57,124 nucleotides of DNA from positions 1 to 57,124 of the forward strand of contig NZ_MSCV01000043.1 of assembly GCF_002005105.1 (NCBI RefSeq), in the 5' to 3' direction. Below the pieces are notes generated by a model. That model had not been told where the DNA came from. It saw nothing but the letters and a program-made list of their open reading frames with translations, and did not search any database. This DNA comes from Methylocaldum sp. 14B. Its GTDB lineage: Bacteria; Pseudomonadota; Gammaproteobacteria; Methylococcales; Methylococcaceae. The stretch's first letter is position 1, and the number at the start of each line of letters is the position of its first letter. This document shows, in pieces, positions 7,691 to 36,093 of the stretch. Both the position numbers and the translations under genes were made by a program.

Positions 7691-7711
7691 ATGGCGAGTG
7701 GTGGTCGAATG
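7687..7711 (+). repeat. Short copy of the GGCGAAT-type repeat at the end of the SNF2 gene
   Basis: The sequence TGAATGGCGAGTGGTGG is the same unit that recurs inside the methyltransferase gene downstream. The TGA stop of the helicase gene is the first three bases of this copy. Only one arm is present, with no complementary arm nearby. Confidence 0.6.
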
Positions 7712-7753
7712 CGCTATAAATGTGACCATTCTAGTCATGCACGGGAGGCTATC

Positions 7754-8002
7754 ATGCATACCTGGCCGCTCAATGAAGCCAAAGCCAAAATGTCGGCGCT
7801 GCTCCGGGAAGCCCAGCACAGCCCGCAGGAAATCACCTCGCACGGCAAATCCGTTGCTGTCGTGCTCTCGCGCGAGCAATTCGACCAACTGGCCCAACGA
7901 CAAAAATCCCTCGTCGAGTTCATGCGTCAATCCCCCCTTTGGGGCGATGAAGATCTTGCTCTGGAGCGGGACCGCAGTCTCACGCGAGAGGTCTCGTTTT
8001 GA
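7754..8002 (+). CDS. Phd/YefM-family antitoxin
   Basis: An 82-residue protein starting with HTWPLNEAKAKMSALLREA, the typical Phd/YefM N-terminal DNA-binding fold, followed by ITSHGKSVAVVLSREQFDQL. The ATG at 7754 is chosen because a GGGAGG ribosome site lies just upstream (7743-7748); the frame extends further upstream without such a site. It overlaps the toxin start by four bases (TTGA). Such antitoxins neutralise the partner toxin and repress their own operon. It sits between the SNF2 helicase and the methyltransferase, in the same direction, so it may act as an addiction module that stabilises the defence operon (inference). Confidence 0.85.
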   Translation: MHTWPLNEAKAKMSALLREAQHSPQEITSHGKSVAVVLSREQFDQLAQRQKSLVEFMRQSPLWGDEDLALERDRSLTREVSF

Positions 8003-8415
8003 GCTATTTGATCGATACCAATGTGCTCTCCGAACTGCGGCGCAAGAATCCCAACCCGCGACTGGTCGACTGGCTGGCCGCCAAACCCGCCAGCCAGTTA
8101 TACCTCAGCGTGTTGACACTGGGCGAAATACGCAAGGGCATCGAGGCATGTCCCGATGCCTTCCGTCGTCAAATTCTGCTCGACTGGCTGGAAACCGAGC
8201 TTCCTGCATTTTTCTTCGGCCGCGTTTTACCCATCGACGCGGCGATTGCCGATCGCTGGGGGCGCGTGCTCGCCCGGGCAGGCCGGCCCTTGCCGGCCAT
8301 CGACAGCCTGATCGCCGCGACGGCCCTTGAACATGACCTGACGCTGGTCACACGTAACATCCGCGATTTTGAACAGATCCCCGTCGAACTGTTCAATCCC
8401 TGGGATAGTCCCTGA
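7999..8415 (+). CDS. PIN-domain toxin (VapC/FitB type)
   Basis: A 138-residue PIN-domain ribonuclease. The first acidic residue is in SYLIDTNVLSELRRK, and the C-terminal acidic cluster is in AIDSLIAATALEHDLTLVTRN followed by RDFE, the standard VapC/FitB pattern. Translation begins at a TTG that overlaps the antitoxin stop (TTGA), which implies coupled translation. Toxins of this family cleave RNA in the cytoplasm when the labile antitoxin is lost. The methyltransferase start follows 22 bases after the stop, so the pair sits inside the defence operon and does not interrupt its direction. Confidence 0.88.
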   Translation: MSYLIDTNVLSELRRKNPNPRLVDWLAAKPASQLYLSVLTLGEIRKGIEACPDAFRRQILLDWLETELPAFFFGRVLPIDAAIADRWGRVLARAGRPLPAIDSLIAATALEHDLTLVTRNIRDFEQIPVELFNPWDSP

Positions 8416-8437
8416 TCTTTACCCACCGCCCTCCAAC

Positions 8438-11400
8438 ATGAAGCGCACCCGCAAGACCGCCGGCGCCCTCAGCCTGCCGACGCTCACCCTCGAAGGCGGC
8501 CTGTTCCTCCCCGACCAGTTGGAAAAAGCCGCGCTCGGCGTCGCCCAGCACCAGACCGAGGCCGATTACGCCATCCCGAAAGGGCTCAAGCTCAAGGATG
8601 AATACGGCCGCGCCTTTCAGATCGCCTGTGCCGAGTGGAAGCACTTCGCCGTCCAGATGGAGCGAGCCGATCTGGACACGGCCGCTATCACCCAGAACTT
8701 TGTGCGCGAACTGCTGCGCGATGCCTTCGGCTACACCCAAATCCAGCCTGTATCCGATATCGCCGTGGCAGATCGCCGCTACCCGGTGTCGCTGCTCGCG
8801 GGCCAGGTGCCCATCGTCGTCGCCCCGCACCCGTTGGGGCTGGATGAGGCCGACCCGCGCTTCGCCGTGATGGCGAATGGTGAATGGCGAGTAGCGAATG
8901 GTAAGAAGGAAGACCATTCGCCACTCGCCATTCGCCACTCGCCGACTTCCCATTCGCCACTCGCCACTCGCCATTCAGCCACGAAGGGCAACGCCCGCAA
9001 ACTAACCGGCAGCTACTACACCCCCGACAGCCTGGTGCAAGAGCTGATCCAATCCGCGCTTGATCCCGTGATCGAACAGCGCCTCAGTGAGGCGGGGCGA
9101 ATGGCGAACAGCGAATGGTCAATGGTTTCTCCCCAATACCGTGAGGTGTTTATCCACTATGCAAATCCAAAGTTACCGGAATCTGGAGGTTTGGCAGCGC
9201 GCGCGCAAACTGGTCACGGAAATTTATCGGTTGACCGAAGCCTTCCCGACGAGCGAGCGGTTTGGGCTGATCGCCCAGATGAGGCGGGCGGCGGTGTCGA
9301 TTCCGAGCAACATTGCGGAAGGATGGGGGCGGCATTATCCGGCGGAGTTCACTCAGTTCCTCAGAACCGCCAACGGGAGCAGGGTCGAATTGGAGACACA
9401 ACTGATTTTATCGACCGATCTGGGGTTCAGCACGGAGACCGACCTAACGCCGCTGTTGGAACAAACCACGATTCTCGGCAAACAGCTACTGTCACTGGAA
9501 CGCCGCTTGAAGGGGCGAATGGAGAATGGCGAACGGTAAATGGAGAGAACAGTGACCATTCGCCACTCACCACTCGCTATTCGCGATTATGGGAAGAAAC
9601 GCCTTCCTCCATTCGCCATTCGCTATTCGCCACTCACGCACTACTGAGTCTCCGCGTGATCGACCCTGCCTGCGGCAGCGGTCACTTTTTGCTCGCCGCC
9701 GCCCGCCGCTTGGCGGAAAAGCTTGCCCAGTTACAAAGCCCGGAGGGTGCAGTTACACCTCAGGACTACCGTCATGCCTTGCGCGAAGTCGTGGCACGCT
9801 GCATCTTCGGGGTGGACCGCAACCCGATGGCGCTGGAACTGGCCCGCACCGCCCTGTGGCTGGAAGGCTACGAGGAAGGCCGGCCGCTGTCCTTCCTCGA
9901 CCACCATTTGCAATGCGGCGATGCGCTGCTGGGCCTGACCGATCTGAAGGCGCTGGAACAGGGCATCGCCAAGGACGCCTACAAGCCGCTTTCGGGCGAT
10001 GACAAGGACGTGTGCAAGCGGCTGGCCAAGGCCAACGCCGTCGGCCTCAAGCAACTGGAACGCGACCTCAAAGGCAAGCAAACCCGGCTGCGCTTCGACG
10101 ACGCGGATAGCCTGGCCGCCTTGCAAATCCTCGAAGCCCTGCCGGAGAACAGCACGCAGGACATCGCCGCCAAGGAAACTGCCTACCGCGATTTCTTGCA
10201 GCAGGCGAAGGAGAGCCGTCTCGCCCACGCCGCCGACCTCCTGCTGGGCGCCTACCTGCTGCCGAAAACGGCGAATGGCGAAGATGAGGCGAACAGTGAG
10301 TGGCGAATGGCGAATGGTGGGGAAGAAGCGAATGGCATTCACCACTCGCCATTCACCATTCACCACTCGCCCGTCCCTACCAGCGCCACGCTGTATCTGG
10401 CCCTGTTGACCGATACCCTCGACGCCGGCCACCGGCGGCAATTGGCCGCGGCGCAGGCCGTTTGCCGCGAAGCCCGCGTGCTGCACTGGCCGCTGGCCTT
10501 TCCGCAGGTGTTCGCGACGGGGGGCTTTGACTGTGTGTTGGGCAATCCGCCCTGGGAACGGATCAAGCTGCAAGAGGAGGAATTCTTCGCCACCCGCCAC
10601 CGCCACGTGGCCGAGGCGAAAAACAAGGCCGAGCGCGCCCAGCGCATCCAATGGCTCTCGGAGGGCATGCTGGCCCGCCATCTCTATCCGCAAATGGATC
10701 ATCCGCCCCACGAGTGCGAGGCGGAACAGCGCCTGTACGCCGAATTCATTGGCGCCCGCCGCACCGCCGAAGCCGCCAGCCTGTTCGCCCATGTGAAGGG
10801 GGAAGACGGTGGTCGCTATCCGTTGACCGGAGTGGGGGATGTGAACACCTATGCCTTGTTTGCCGAAACCATCAATCAGATAACGGCGCCTCGGGGCCGT
10901 GCAGGTTTTATCGTGCCAACAGGCATCGCCACAGACGACAGCACCAAAGCTTATTTTGCCAATATCACCCAAGCTGGACGCTTGGTGAGCCTGTACGACA
11001 TTGAAAATCGTGAAGCAGTGTTCGAAGACGTGCATCGCAGTTACAAATTTTGCCTCCTTACGCTAGGGGCTGCCGAGCAGGCGGAGTTCGTCTGCTTTGC
11101 CACGCAAGTCGATCAGTTGAAGGATTCTCGCCGCCGCTTCCGTCTCACTCCGGACGAATTCCGCCTCATCAACCCCAACACGCTCACCTGCCCGGTGTTC
11201 CGCAGCGAGCGCGATGCCGAACTCACCAAGAAGCTCTACCGCGCCGCGCCGGTGCTGATCGAGGAGGGCCAGCCCGATGGCAATCCGTGGGGAATTTCCT
11301 TCATGCGTATGCTGGACATGGCCAACGATAGCCACCTGTTTGCCGATGCCCCCAGCCCCGGCCTGCTGCCGCTGTACGAGGCCAAAATGATCCACCAGTT

Positions 11401-12346
11401 CGACCACCGCTGGGCGAGCTACGGTTCCGACGGAAACAGCGGCGATGTCACGCTCGACGACAAAAATGATCCGAGTTTCACCGTCACCCCGCGTTACTGG
11501 GTCAGCGAGGCGGAAGTCGAACAACGTCTGAGCGATAAGAACTGGTCACGCGGCTGGCTGATGGGCTGGCGGGATATTTGCCGGGCGACGGACGAACGCA
11601 CGGCGATTGCGTCGGTGGTGCCGAGGGTTGGGGTGGGACATACCATGCCGCTCTTCATGACTACTGCGGAACCGATGAGGGTGGCGGCGCTACTGGGTAA
11701 TTTCGGCGCATTGGTACTGGATTTCATTGCCCGTGTGAAGGTAGGCGGCACACACCTGACATACTCCTGCCTCAAGCAATTCCCGTTCATTCCGCCCGAC
11801 CGCTACACAGAAACCGATCTCGCCTTCATCGTCCCCCGCGTCCTCGAACTGACCTACACCGCCCACGATCTGCAAGCCTGGGCCGAAGACCTGGTGAGCG
11901 AATGGGGCGCGGCGAATGGTGAATGGCGGATGGCGGGGGTGGCGGGGATGGCGAATGGTGAATGGCGAATAGCGAATGGTAAGAAAGAAGACCGTTCGCC
12001 ACTCGCTACTTACCGTTCACCGTCTTCCCATTCGCCACTTACCATTCGCCATTCGCCCGAAAACCCACTCGCTATTCGCCACTCGCCACTCACCCCTTTC
12101 CCCTTCGACCCCGAACGCCGTGCTCACCTCCGCGCCGAACTGGACGCCTATTACGCCCGCCTCTACGGCCTGACCCGCGACGAACTGCGCTACATCCTCC
12201 ACCCCGCCGACGTGATGGGCGAGGACTACCCCTCCGAAACCTTCCGCGTGCTCAAGAACAACGAAGTGCGCGCATTCGGCGAATACCGCACCCAACGCCT
12301 GGTGCTGGCGGCGTGGGATCGATTGGAGAAGGGCGAATTGTCATGA
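8438..12346 (+). CDS. Eco57I/PglX-type adenine-specific DNA methyltransferase carrying repeat insertions
   Basis: A 1,302-residue gamma-class N6-adenine methyltransferase. The pre-motif region is LTGSYYTPDSLVQELI; motif I is DPACGSGHFLLAA near residue 407; motif IV is LGNPPWERIK near residue 700; a specificity region follows. In defence operons with two helicases such an enzyme marks self DNA (DrmMI in DISARM). The ATG at 8438 is chosen because the earlier frame only overlaps the toxin gene. The protein is inflated by four in-frame repeat insertions (8871-8976, 9096-9640, 10271-10371, 11911-12092), read as peptides such as MANGEWRVANGK and HSPLAIRHSP. The frame stays open through all of them. 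Whether the enzyme folds and works with these insertions cannot be told from sequence. Confidence 0.85.
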   Translation: MKRTRKTAGALSLPTLTLEGGLFLPDQLEKAALGVAQHQTEADYAIPKGLKLKDEYGRAFQIACAEWKHFAVQMERADLDTAAITQNFVRELLRDAFGYTQIQPVSDIAVADRRYPVSLLAGQVPIVVAPHPLGLDEADPRFAVMANGEWRVANGKKEDHSPLAIRHSPTSHSPLATRHSATKGNARKLTGSYYTPDSLVQELIQSALDPVIEQRLSEAGRMANSEWSMVSPQYREVFIHYANPKLPESGGLAARAQTGHGNLSVDRSLPDERAVWADRPDEAGGGVDSEQHCGRMGAALSGGVHSVPQNRQREQGRIGDTTDFIDRSGVQHGDRPNAAVGTNHDSRQTATVTGTPLEGANGEWRTVNGENSDHSPLTTRYSRLWEETPSSIRHSLFATHALLSLRVIDPACGSGHFLLAAARRLAEKLAQLQSPEGAVTPQDYRHALREVVARCIFGVDRNPMALELARTALWLEGYEEGRPLSFLDHHLQCGDALLGLTDLKALEQGIAKDAYKPLSGDDKDVCKRLAKANAVGLKQLERDLKGKQTRLRFDDADSLAALQILEALPENSTQDIAAKETAYRDFLQQAKESRLAHAADLLLGAYLLPKTANGEDEANSEWRMANGGEEANGIHHSPFTIHHSPVPTSATLYLALLTDTLDAGHRRQLAAAQAVCREARVLHWPLAFPQVFATGGFDCVLGNPPWERIKLQEEEFFATRHRHVAEAKNKAERAQRIQWLSEGMLARHLYPQMDHPPHECEAEQRLYAEFIGARRTAEAASLFAHVKGEDGGRYPLTGVGDVNTYALFAETINQITAPRGRAGFIVPTGIATDDSTKAYFANITQAGRLVSLYDIENREAVFEDVHRSYKFCLLTLGAAEQAEFVCFATQVDQLKDSRRRFRLTPDEFRLINPNTLTCPVFRSERDAELTKKLYRAAPVLIEEGQPDGNPWGISFMRMLDMANDSHLFADAPSPGLLPLYEAKMIHQFDHRWASYGSDGNSGDVTLDDKNDPSFTVTPRYWVSEAEVEQRLSDKNWSRGWLMGWRDICRATDERTAIASVVPRVGVGHTMPLFMTTAEPMRVAALLGNFGALVLDFIARVKVGGTHLTYSCLKQFPFIPPDRYTETDLAFIVPRVLELTYTAHDLQAWAEDLVSEWGAANGEWRMAGVAGMANGEWRIANGKKEDRSPLATYRSPSSHSPLTIRHSPENPLAIRHSPLTPFPFDPERRAHLRAELDAYYARLYGLTRDELRYILHPADVMGEDYPSETFRVLKNNEVRAFGEYRTQRLVLAAWDRLEKGELS
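8871..8976 (+). repeat. In-frame palindromic GGCGAAT repeat R1
   Basis: Forward copies of the unit are followed by their reverse complements. The strongest hairpin pairs 8882-8901 (gaatggcgagtagcgaatgg) with 8914-8933, 20 pairs with one G-T mismatch, around a purine-rich 12-base loop (taagaaggaaga). The loop recurs almost unchanged in R4. The length keeps the methyltransferase frame open. Confidence 0.85.
9096..9640 (+). mobile_element. Composite insertion R2: GGCGAAT repeats flanking a four-helix-bundle gene
   Basis: About 545 bases inserted in frame just before methyltransferase motif I. The left side has forward units (9097-9125); the right side has forward units that run into the end of the inner gene (9513-9545) and then reverse-complement units (9557-9637). 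Between them lies a complete 126-codon gene in a different frame. The methyltransferase frame across this stretch (for example PESGGLAARAQTGHG) has no family resemblance, as expected for overprinted DNA. I call it an element because the same repeat also occurs alone at other sites in the gene; its mobility is inferred. Confidence 0.7.
9159..9539 (+). CDS. Four-helix-bundle protein (23S rRNA intervening-sequence / S23 type)
   Basis: A 126-residue protein starting QIQSYRNLEVWQRARKLV, with the family hallmarks LEVWQ, FPTSERFGLIAQMRRAAVSIPSN (read in two parts), NIAEGWGR and a helical C terminus LLSLERRLKGR. This family was first seen in intervening sequences of 23S rRNA genes and also includes the Avd accessory protein of diversity-generating retroelements; it forms basic four-helix bundles that may bind nucleic acid. 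A GAGG lies about ten bases before the ATG. The last residues (GRMENGER) are encoded by the GGCGAAT repeat. The gene lies wholly within the methyltransferase reading frame in another phase, so one DNA segment encodes two proteins if both are translated. Confidence 0.85.
   Translation: MQIQSYRNLEVWQRARKLVTEIYRLTEAFPTSERFGLIAQMRRAAVSIPSNIAEGWGRHYPAEFTQFLRTANGSRVELETQLILSTDLGFSTETDLTPLLEQTTILGKQLLSLERRLKGRMENGER
10271..10371 (+). repeat. In-frame palindromic GGCGAAT repeat R3
   Basis: Forward units (10271-10317) then reverse-complement units (10335-10369). The arms 10298-10317 and 10349-10368 pair over 20 bases with only G-T type mismatches. It lies between methyltransferase motifs I and IV and is translated as NGEDEANSEWRMANGG followed by HHSPFTIHHSP, with no frame change. 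Confidence 0.85.
11911..12092 (+). repeat. In-frame palindromic GGCGAAT repeat R4
   Basis: The longest simple copy, near the 3' end of the methyltransferase gene. A 28-base forward arm around 11953-11980 faces a 28-base reverse arm (11992-12019); all differences between the arms are transitions, and the loop aagaaagaaga is almost the R1 loop. Further reverse units continue to 12092. The reading frame remains open and resumes with the family C terminus (FDPERRAHLRAELDAYYARL). Confidence 0.85.
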
Positions 12347-12373
12347 AGGCTTTGTCACCTCCTTCGGATAGCC

Positions 12374-12838
12374 GTGGCGAAACCTATAGACATACTTACC
12401 ATCATGGTAAATACTAGGAAAAACCTGAGCGCTTATGCCGGTACGCCGCCGTCGGACGATCAGGCCGACCGCCGCATCCCCGGCGGCCCGCTGTACACAA
12501 GGGAGGAAGTGCTGGCCATACTGGCTACAGGCGAGGCGGCAATTAAGCTTTGGACGCAAAAGTGCATGCGTGATGTCCAAAAATACGATATGGAGCCCGC
12601 CGATGTCGTCGATCTGGTGAAAATCGCTTTGAATGGTGGAAAGTTCAAAGGGAGCCAGTGGTGTACCAATAAACCGGGCGGCGCCTGGGCGGCTTGCGAC
12701 AGTTACCAACTGTTCTTTCGGCAATGGATAGAAACCGCCAACAAGCACATGGATGTTGAATATTATGTGAAATTTGCGATTGGGCGCTCCGGCAACATGA
12801 TGTTGATCATCTCTTGCCACCCGCCCGAGGAGAGGTAG
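12374..12838 (+). CDS. MqsR-like toxin of a toxin-antitoxin-chaperone cassette
   Basis: A 154-residue protein with a C-terminal stretch that resembles MqsR (RelE-like mRNA interferase): YTREEVLAILATGEAA, then DVVDLVKIALNGGKFKGS, ending VEYYVKFAIGRSGNMMLII. The match is remote, so the assignment leans on the next gene, which is clearly MqsA-like, and on the SecB-like gene after it. The GTG at 12374 or the ATG at 12404 could start it; neither has a good ribosome site. MqsR-type toxins cleave mRNA and stop growth. The gene order toxin, antitoxin, chaperone is that of MqsRA-type TAC systems, which have been reported to act against phages. Confidence 0.68.
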   Translation: MAKPIDILTIMVNTRKNLSAYAGTPPSDDQADRRIPGGPLYTREEVLAILATGEAAIKLWTQKCMRDVQKYDMEPADVVDLVKIALNGGKFKGSQWCTNKPGGAWAACDSYQLFFRQWIETANKHMDVEYYVKFAIGRSGNMMLIISCHPPEER

Positions 12839-12843
12839 CCAGT

Positions 12844-13416
12844 ATGAACCCTCAAACCCAACTTTGCCCGCTATGCGAAGAAGGACAACTGCATGAGCGC
12901 ATGGACTTCAGCGAGGTTGAATACAAAGGACAACACGCATCGTTGCCTCTGTACTTTGCCGAGTGTGATGCTTGCGGATCGGAGCAGGGTAGCGCCGAGC
13001 ACATTCGCCGTAACAAACGCGCCATGATTGCCTTCAAAAAGCAGGTGGACGGTCTGCTGCCTGGTGCAGAGGTGCGTGCGATCCGGGAGCGCTTGGGTAT
13101 TACCCAGGCGCAGGCCTCGCAGATTTTCGGCGGCGGGCCGGTGGCGTTTTCCAAATACGAAGGCGACGATGTGATGCAATCCGAAGCCATGGACAAGTTG
13201 CTGCGGCTGGCGTCTGAGGTGCCCGAGGCATTCGCCAAGCTGGCGCGTGATGCGGGCGTGGAGATACCTGCGGTCGCCGCGCGTTCGGCCGACTGGCAAG
13301 CCGTGGATTGGCAGCCGGATCAGTCCAGCCTGGCGACGCCGCGAAAAACGCCCCGCCTGCGCGTGGTTCACAGCTCGAAACCCGAACCCGCCGCACACTA
13401 CGAAAACGCCGCATGA
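12844..13416 (+). CDS. mqsA: MqsA-family antitoxin with zinc finger, HTH and extended C terminus
   Basis: A 190-residue protein. The N-terminal zinc site is formed by C8/C11 (LCPLCEEG) and C41/C44 (ECDACGSE); the helix-turn-helix is IRERLGITQAQASQIFGGG with FSKYEGDD after it. This is the MqsA layout. A GAGGAGAGG ribosome site precedes the ATG at 12844. Compared with E. coli MqsA (131 residues) it has about 50 extra C-terminal residues rich in W and P (SADWQAVDWQPDQS). In TAC systems such a tail is the chaperone-addiction (ChAD) segment that makes the antitoxin depend on its SecB-like partner; here that role is inferred from position and from the SecB-like gene that overlaps the stop (ATGA). 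Confidence 0.85.
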   Translation: MNPQTQLCPLCEEGQLHERMDFSEVEYKGQHASLPLYFAECDACGSEQGSAEHIRRNKRAMIAFKKQVDGLLPGAEVRAIRERLGITQAQASQIFGGGPVAFSKYEGDDVMQSEAMDKLLRLASEVPEAFAKLARDAGVEIPAVAARSADWQAVDWQPDQSSLATPRKTPRLRVVHSSKPEPAAHYENAA

Positions 13417-16743: not shown

Positions 16744-16760
16744 TGAAGGTCTGATTAAGT

Positions 16761-16817
16761 CCTTCGACAGGCCTGTCCTGAGCCCTTCGACTGGGCTCAG
16801 GACAGGCCTGTCGAAGG
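16761..16817 (+). repeat. Perfect 25-bp inverted repeat downstream of the relaxase gene
   Basis: 16761-16785 is the exact reverse complement of 16793-16817, with a 7-base loop (ttcgact). It contains the CCTTCGACAGG/CCTGTCGAAGG motif common in dispersed repeats of environmental bacteria. No T tract follows, so it is more likely a REP-type repeat than an intrinsic terminator, although it could stall transcription 20 bases after the relaxase gene. Confidence 0.85.
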
Positions 16818-16877
16818 GCATGAGCGGAATCCACTTATTCAGAGCTTCCTTAACGAATCTACTGTTTGGATTGAATG

Positions 16878-18751: not shown

Positions 18752-19004
18752 TGCGGCCAGCCAGATACGTAGGTCGGCAATCCCTTGCCGACAAAGCCCT
18801 TCGCCGAGCCGATACGTCGGCAAGGGATTGCCGACCTACGTTCTCCCCTCCTGGCACGAATCCGTACACCGGGATGGAAAACGCTCTAAGTACATTCAGG
18901 GAAGTCTTGCGGCATAGGCAACCTGCAGGACAACCCCGCCAATCAAGCCAAACAGTCGAGATTCCGCAAGTATTTGCGGAATGTACTTAGGTGCGGCCAG
19001 CCAG
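18752..19004. repeat. Palindrome-rich segment bounded by 13-bp direct repeats
   Basis: The direct repeat tgcggccagccag occurs at 18752-18764 and 18992-19004. Between them are a perfect 26-bp inverted repeat (18767-18792 with 18816-18841, core ggtcggcaatcccttgccga), a perfect 12-bp inverted repeat (ctaagtacattc at 18886-18897 with 18979-18990) and a 9-bp hairpin (18961-18969 with 18974-18982). No gene is seen. It resembles inserted REP/MITE-type DNA with a target duplication. A further small palindrome (atcctagaaatctaggat, 18736-18753) precedes it. Confidence 0.65.
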
Positions 19005-35990: not shown

Positions 35991-36093
35991 TGTTCACGTA
36001 ACGTGAACATTATAAGACAGCGAACACAAGATCAAGCGAAATGTTCACGTAATGATCATGTTCACGATGCATGAACATGATCATTACGTGAAC
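35991..36093 (-). promoter_or_regulatory. Palindromic operator upstream of abiEi
   Basis: Two linked palindromes built on TGTTCACGTAA. A perfect 19-base palindrome lies at 35991-36009 (tgttcacgtaacgtgaaca), and a perfect 22-base inverted repeat pairs 36043-36064 with 36072-36093 around a 7-base centre. A further half site overlaps the start codon (35973-35979). AbiEi antitoxins are known to bind inverted repeats at their promoter, so this is the likely autoregulatory site. Confidence 0.8.

Follow-up and report, generated by a model that had tools for sequence, protein, structure and literature searches.

S23 proteins fall in the same broad family as Avd of diversity-generating retroelements, which has a four-helix fold. 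For the intervening sequence (IVS) in Coxiella 23S rRNA, the retrieved passages of PMC4990558 describe tandem heptamers (GACAGAT, two or three depending on the strain) before the S23 start codon and an RNase III site at the first heptamer; they also report that the X. campestris family member is a homopentamer and that the function of S23 proteins is not known. Heptamer repeats have been described in Xanthomonas and Nostoc (GGGAATC/GGGGATT) and in Beggiatoaceae (TAACTGA), and the retrieved parts of the same papers give no agreed reason for their over-abundance in bacteria (PMC4692102, PMC4679880). The Rickettsia palindromic elements, of about 150 bp, appear in the excerpts of PMC10969869 as sequence families spread over unrelated metabolic genes.

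The window, a stretch of 57,124 nucleotides, is contig C43 (NZ_MSCV01000043.1) of the 5.62 Mb genome of Methylocaldum sp. 14B. It carries a gene for a DNA adenine methyltransferase (MTase), with DrmMI and type IIG as closest PADLOC models, in an open frame spanning 8369-12346 whose ATG is likely at 8438; upstream lie a DpdE/DrmD-like helicase and a Phd/PIN toxin-antitoxin pair. The peptides DPACGSGHF and NPPW we take to be MTase motifs I and IV. The frame contains four blocks of heptamer repeats, R1 to R4, one of which encloses an S23 gene (Table 1), and Pfam gives no Intein/Hint match in the host ORF. Around the gene we also note the Phd/YefM-PIN pair at 7691-8415, between helicase and MTase, an MqsA-like antitoxin gene at 12814-13416, directly 3' of the MTase, and strong short inverted repeats, unrelated to the heptamers, at 16750-16828 (86% complementary), 18767-18841 (100%) and 36043-36093 (100%).

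Table 1. Features of the window, in window coordinates, and the host genes of in-gene S23 elements
Feature	Position or loci	Strand	Remarks
Host DNA adenine methyltransferase gene	8438..12346	+	Pfam Eco57I, MmeI_Mtase, N6_Mtase
R1, heptamer palindrome without a gene	8864..8980 (also given as 8870-8986)	+	Homologues have ~970 nt there
R2, in-frame S23 insertion preceding motif I	9096..9640	+	Absent from homologues
Left-hand GAATGGC-type heptamer array of R2	9095..9125	+	
S23 / 23S_rRNA_IVP gene	9159..9539	+	126 aa, frame +1 to host
Right side of R2	9514..9639	+	Direct array across S23 stop, then inverted GCCATTC arrays
Presumed MTase motif I, DPACGSGHF	9662..9688	+	Shortly 3' of R2
R3, heptamer palindrome	10288..10379	+	Variable linker of host protein
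Presumed MTase motif IV, NPPW	10544..10555	+	
R4, heptamer palindrome close to the C-terminal end of the host	11911..12095	+	113 nt 86% identical to R1
Eco57I/MmeI/N6-type hosts	window, L150, L171, L146, L293, L247		PADLOC on 4 of 6: DrmMI, IIG or PglX
N6_N4 hosts	L148, L089		L148 PADLOC type III
DUF1156 hosts	L092, L306, L330, L412		Pfam: unknown function
DnaE host	L243		

R2 is a 545-nt element with GAATGGC arrays at its borders. A preliminary description of this DNA had proposed that a complete four-helix-bundle gene is overprinted within the MTase frame and that this frame stays open across the whole insertion, and both statements hold: the S23 ORF (9087-9539) has a probable ATG at 9159, giving 126 codons and a stop, its product matches PF05635 at E=1.3e-36 (125.5 bits against a curated cut-off of 33.8), and the MTase ORF is unbroken. 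The sole PDB relative found is 2gsc (XCC0516; E=3.4e-25). A purine-rich GAGGTG precedes the ATG at 9143-9148, and the final codons of the gene fall within the repeat. RNA folding yields a hairpin on the right side of R2 (z -5.1), which also pairs with the left array; the z-score is -3.2 for R2 as a whole and -5.1 to -7.1 across R1, the 3' part of R2, R3 and R4. The S23 ORF is thus enclosed, as in the 23S rRNA IVSs, by inverted repeats that form a stem in these folds. The gene itself sits in the MTase ORF, with no rRNA match at 8000-13000, where Rfam gives only sub-threshold matches to unrelated families.

MTase alleles without the insertion, a comparison that the preliminary description had called for, are available in three homologues. 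By this comparison R2 lies between ..EQRL (helix ..VIEQRL) and LSLRVIDPACGSGHF (strand leading to motif I), an interval of ~570 nt in the window against 42-45 nt in L025 (an A. caldus plasmid) and L049 (genome G030), so that R2 adds ~525 nt relative to these two; the L047 protein (genome G092) likewise has no R2. R3 and R4 occupy positions that are short linkers in L025 and L049. R1 replaces ~970 nt (~320 codons) kept in all three homologues and would mark a deletion, for which true loss and assembly collapse between repeats are both possible. Because these ~320 codons are gone, the activity of the window's own MTase is doubtful, and it may not be fully active. In genome G030, the close homologue of the window MTase (L049, L050), which is split over two contigs, carries other in-frame repeats, of the SPRPVGEGMGGG type.

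With one mismatch allowed, the GAATGGC unit pattern matches the genome 22 times, always inside this MTase gene, and the reversed control pattern has no match in the genome; the arrays of the window are not due to chance. Transposition of the unit through the genome was rejected on the same 22 matches. Since R1 and R4 share 86% identity across 113 nt, copies appear to have multiplied within the MTase gene. The same genome holds a sister S23 gene on contig C12 (L002), as the preliminary description expected, flanked on either side by a heptamer of another sequence. This GCTGAAA-type element (1393-1895 of L002, G000 C12:37068-40382) is situated between two co-directional genes that by eye resemble contractile-tail genes.

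S23 genes were collected from Pfam matches in the same phylum and family (those fetched), from named genomes and from viral contigs (36 genes). Named-genome genes were recognized by a conserved motif and ordered by their similarity to an alignment with the window's S23 at its head, the best 80 of 577 confirmed genes being kept. An array was called at a score of at least 12 within 300 nt of S23. Loci without an S23 match were left out (7 of 205 in the first batch, 7 of 30 in the second), as were six re-fetched loci (L294-L299) and L414, a repeat of L330; removal of six further exact sequence repeats took the sample from 245 to 239 S23 genes, near-identical viral copies being retained. ParE loci served as controls, 22 of them after eight of 30 were left out as too short.

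In the first sample, 149 of 198 S23 genes have a period-7 array beside them and 17 a period-8 array; period 14 (126 of 198) is a harmonic of 7, and every remaining period from 4 to 13 is found at no more than 6 of the 198 loci. The period-7 count is 60/82 for the same phylum and family, 59/80 for the best 80 of 577 and 30/36 for viral contigs. Control windows 1200-1500 nt away have such arrays at 15 of 88 loci, and the ParE controls at none of 22. A cyanobacterial sample gave period 7 in 16 of 29 and period 8 in 11 of 29; many of the latter loci are in genomes of ~2 Mb. (Octamer arrays surround S23 at L071, L085, L106, L144, L145, L186, L326, L328, L329 and others.) Over all samples, period 7 occurs at 171 of 239 different S23 genes, period 8 at 30, either or both at 200 and neither at 39 (before repeat removal: 175 of 245, 30, and 204 with either or both). 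The proposal that gene and repeats make up a single element, like the rRNA intervening sequences, is supported and generalizes across phyla, while the thought that related genes might never carry repeats fails at the 200 genes with period 7 or 8; the repeat rule is broader than the preliminary description saw.

Where arrays lie on both sides, their units are reverse-complementary at no fewer than 5 of 7 positions in 86 of 97 loci (7/7 in 43, 6/7 in 30, 5/7 in 13), against 18% of mismatched unit pairs that reach 5/7. The units themselves are diverse, with 117 distinct ones among 149 loci. They differ even between S23 copies of one genome, which rejects a unit fixed by the genome, and unit similarity follows S23 protein identity only above about 50-60%, so that a unit fixed by the S23 protein was rejected as well, being common to closer relatives only. 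As in a transposon or MITE the inverted ends match within each locus; with 117 units at 149 loci, no terminal inverted repeats common to the family were found, and no target-site duplication is evident by eye against empty homologues, which are diverged. We infer that the elements are probably mobile. The upstream array is purine-rich in 98 of 122 loci and has G over C in 109 of 122. An enrichment of Shine-Dalgarno-type motifs before S23 starts was not convincing, the 87 of 210 observed being not clearly above shuffles (mean 74, maximum 93).

S23 might be a passive passenger, sitting where it is tolerated among palindromes that arise by replication slippage or foldback. Array-only copies (R1, R3, R4 and L056) would fit, as would the general over-representation of heptamers in bacteria (PMC4679880, PMC4692102, as far as their retrieved text goes), but arrays accompany S23 at a rate far above background, symmetrically about the gene and with units that match, and we regard the passenger reading as unlikely. 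The L056 copy (L056:1413-1511) is a gene-less palindromic heptamer element with an AGTGGAT unit, in frame in a host that looks by eye like an NRPS adenylation domain; its centre is GAAGAAG-like, as in R1 and R4.

Many of the S23 elements that are not in genes start a few bases from the stop codon of the upstream gene and end close to the start codon of the following one. For the 149 array-bearing loci of this kind that have enough flank, a set different from the 149 period-7 loci and counted here with no baseline, both neighbours are co-directional with S23 in 58, both opposite in 9 and mixed in 5, at least one neighbour being uncallable in the other 77. Of 76 co-directional upstream genes, 34 terminate no more than 9 nt from where the array starts; the array border is uncertain by one unit, and some of the upstream stops may come from the array itself. 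Two of 15 loci tested, L133 and L134, are inside 23S rRNA genes; they come from one genome, share the same S23 sequence and have inverted heptamers on both sides. S23 relatives were absent from 50,697 phage records at E 1e-5, and a phage origin was rejected on this absence; 36 uncultivated viral contigs do carry S23. Among 37 plasmid records, no match was annotated as methyltransferase.

On the host strand and within an open host frame (open for at least 100 nt beyond both S23 ends), we count 13 distinct elements among the 239, all with S23 at +1 to the host. By source these are 3/82 in the same phylum and family (including the window), 4/80 in the best 80 of 577, 2/36 in viral contigs, 1/29 in cyanobacteria, 2/17 among copies in genomes chosen afterwards, and one met during MTase fetching; L293, L306 and L412 came from looking where matches were likely. 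The preliminary description had asked for other genomes with this family flanked by the same repeat inside coding genes: array-flanked S23 genes inside coding genes were indeed found, but the unit proved private to each locus. Open frames on the opposite strand at L122 and L194 (GC 0.70 and 0.64) were dropped from the count as likely chance.

The hosts are 12 DNA MTases and one DnaE. All six hosts run through PADLOC match defence-methyltransferase models, among them L171 of Phormidium sp. FACHB-1136, which is below the Pfam cut-off (20.6 against 27 bits) and matches a IIG model at 9e-214. For L092 there are two further matches, one to D12 methylase and one to PADLOC HmaB (DNA-adenine methylase), and L306, L330 and L412 were assigned as MTases by DUF1156 and similarity. 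Insertion sites recur: 15-25 residues before motif I in the window, L150 and L171, and at one loop of DUF1156/HmaB in L092, L306, L330 and L412. This loop, readable in few of the fetched loci, is empty in L413, L416, L417 and L418, and in L415 it holds another palindrome (REP). On a tree of 237 S23 rows the 12 in-gene rows require 10 changes (shuffles average 11.8, with 7 of 500 as low), so most of the in-gene insertions would be independent and the DUF1156 group related; three S23s of that group are 72-77% identical. Since DNA MTases make up only a small fraction of the genes in a genome, their share among the hosts is probably above chance. A general load of arrays in MTases was rejected: starting from the MTase side, arrays were found in none of 30 top-scoring Eco57I loci and in 3 of 30 loci for DUF1156, S23 being present at two of the latter three. 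The preference may come from loops that tolerate inserts, from selection that preserves the enzyme, or from mobile defence genes with which the elements travel.

No stop falls in the MTase frame within R1, R2, R3 or R4 (0, 0, 0, 0); for the other two forward frames the counts are 2+2, 2+8, 0+2 and 1+3, 20 in total. The S23 frame is at +1, (9159-8369) mod 3 being 1, and codon resampling gives P=0.12 for an MTase frame open through the window's S23. Taken alone, the window is mildly surprising and weak evidence, and the strength comes from the other loci. One could suppose that the window MTase is decaying, its insertions unconstrained and its open frame luck in GC-rich DNA; R1 in place of ~320 conserved codons and this P value speak for it. 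Set against them are the contrast of 0 with 20 stops and the S23 frame likewise open in 12 other hosts, most with recognizable domains, and we find such decay quite improbable.

Across the census, 13 of 13 in-gene cases keep the host frame free of stops along S23, against 7 of 220 other S23 genes, a comparison that is partly circular because in-gene status is defined by the open frame; that frame has 6.5 stops on average among the others. None of 233 S23 genes has the third forward frame open (0 of 233), which explains the single +1 offset: apart from their own frame, S23 genes are seen open in the forward direction only in the host-side one. For the first nine in-gene cases, synonymous shuffles gave an expectation of 0.7 open frames; among S23 genes not in genes, 5 of 162 have this frame open against 1.5 expected from such shuffles. 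That heptamers are stop-free in all frames was rejected as a general reason, since it is true for GAATGGC and not for most units: of the 149 units, 48 (32%) contain no stop on either strand, below shuffled units (43%). Hydrophilic residues (G,S,D,N,E,Q,R,K,T,P,H) make up 72% of the host-frame translation in-gene, 63% in the others and 56% in S23 itself, a composition as should be expected of a surface linker if the element is translated.

The preliminary description had suggested that the element is spliced or cut out of the RNA through its hairpins. As an mRNA intervening sequence, the paired arrays would be an RNase III stem and the element would be removed with or without rejoining; the arms do pair around S23, the 23S rRNA insertion has the same architecture, and RNase III excision of the Coxiella IVS is reported in the retrieved passages of PMC4990558. 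However, rRNA IVSs are cleaved without ligation according to the part of PMC11270868 seen, which would kill an mRNA, and the host frame is open in 13 of 13 cases, the MTase frame alone being stop-free in R1-R4. Plain translation through the element (dual coding), with no processing, is favoured on these reading frames, because an excised insert need not keep the host frame open. Nor was any MTase split by S23 with a closed host frame seen among 250 loci with the halves of 11 host proteins as queries, where the only other match was a PglX-like fragment ~3.4 kb from the L164 S23; a wider scan for genes interrupted by closed-frame elements returned 115 rows for 209 loci and is too permissive in GC-rich DNA. 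Excision at the RNA level thus seems very unlikely to us.

DNA MTases are a class known for phase-variable repeats, and a heptamer is not a multiple of three, so one-unit slippage would shift the host frame. The arrays could then be a phase-variation switch that turns the MTase on and off, with S23 tuning it. They are in frame within DNA MTases and some are near-perfect (GGGAGTC in L171), but those of the window and most other in-gene arrays are imperfect and short, little slippage is expected of them, and a switch is improbable.

We think it likely that R2 is a member of a widespread, apparently undescribed class of S23 elements with inverted arrays, read through in MTases and unspliced. Such an element would consist of one S23 four-helix-bundle gene between inverted heptamer (sometimes octamer) arrays whose sequence is private to the locus, and would settle where little breaks: (i) 23S rRNA, (ii) the stop/start junctions of co-directional genes, and (iii) in-frame protein loops, the hosts in this last case being nearly always DNA MTases. 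There, the host mRNA would remain unspliced and the ribosome would read through the element in the host frame, making a linker that is hydrophilic and roughly 135-220 residues long; S23 synthesis would start at its own internal ATG. The arrays may join into a stem, either in RNA or in single-stranded DNA, as RNA folding suggests, and S23 may bind these stems or hairpins, helping the element to persist or spread. A possible route is that one arm serves as the template for the other; units that match within a locus yet are private to it would then be explained. The anatomy of the elements, their generality, fixed frame and recurrent sites can be read from the sequences compared here; a role for S23 and the activity of the host MTases we infer.

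More tentatively, and with slightly less than even confidence, one may see here a pan-bacterial class of selfish S23 genes with locus-private arrays that accounts for much of the heptanucleotide-repeat excess and has nested repeatedly in anti-phage DNA MTases, one stretch of DNA coding both a selfish protein and a host linker. The link between S23 and heptamers makes both puzzles, the function of S23 and the abundance of heptamers, testable by asking whether S23 binds or copies heptamer hairpins, and recurrent fixed-frame residence in defence-type DNA MTases would give a clear example of convergent dual coding. In the open-access literature, with subscription papers and preprints outside the search, we found neither a general link of S23 to heptamer arrays nor S23 inside MTase frames.

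A different in-frame passenger is found at L415, where a DUF559 nuclease-like insert with REP-like flanks (reverse strand, ORF residues 307-411) lies downstream of the loop that S23 elements use elsewhere. Like the S23 elements it has palindromic flanks and resides in a DUF1156 MTase, and another REP occupies the very site used by S23 elements; DUF559, however, reads in the host's own frame, and the repeats are REP-like, not heptamers.

The elements share with the heptamer repeats of Xanthomonas, Nostoc and Beggiatoaceae a 7-nt unit, a mostly intergenic location and some inverted pairs; an S23 or four-helix gene is mentioned 0 times in the retrieved texts of those reports (PMC4692102, PMC4679880). 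Like the 23S rRNA IVSs with an S23p ORF in Coxiella and Leptospira (retrieved passages of PMC4990558), they place an S23 ORF in a stem-forming element within a transcribed host, and those passages do not describe arrays as general to S23 genes. Here, in contrast, the host is a protein frame kept open, in which excision is unnecessary and disfavoured. The Rickettsia palindromic elements also put palindromic repeats in frame in coding genes, and theirs are translated (PMC10969869, in the excerpts seen); R1-R4 are likewise in frame and without stops, as far as their reading frames indicate. Unlike those dispersed families, the GAATGGC unit is confined to one gene of its genome (22 of 22 matches), R2 holds a conserved gene in another frame, and the hosts of in-gene S23 elements are mostly DNA MTases.
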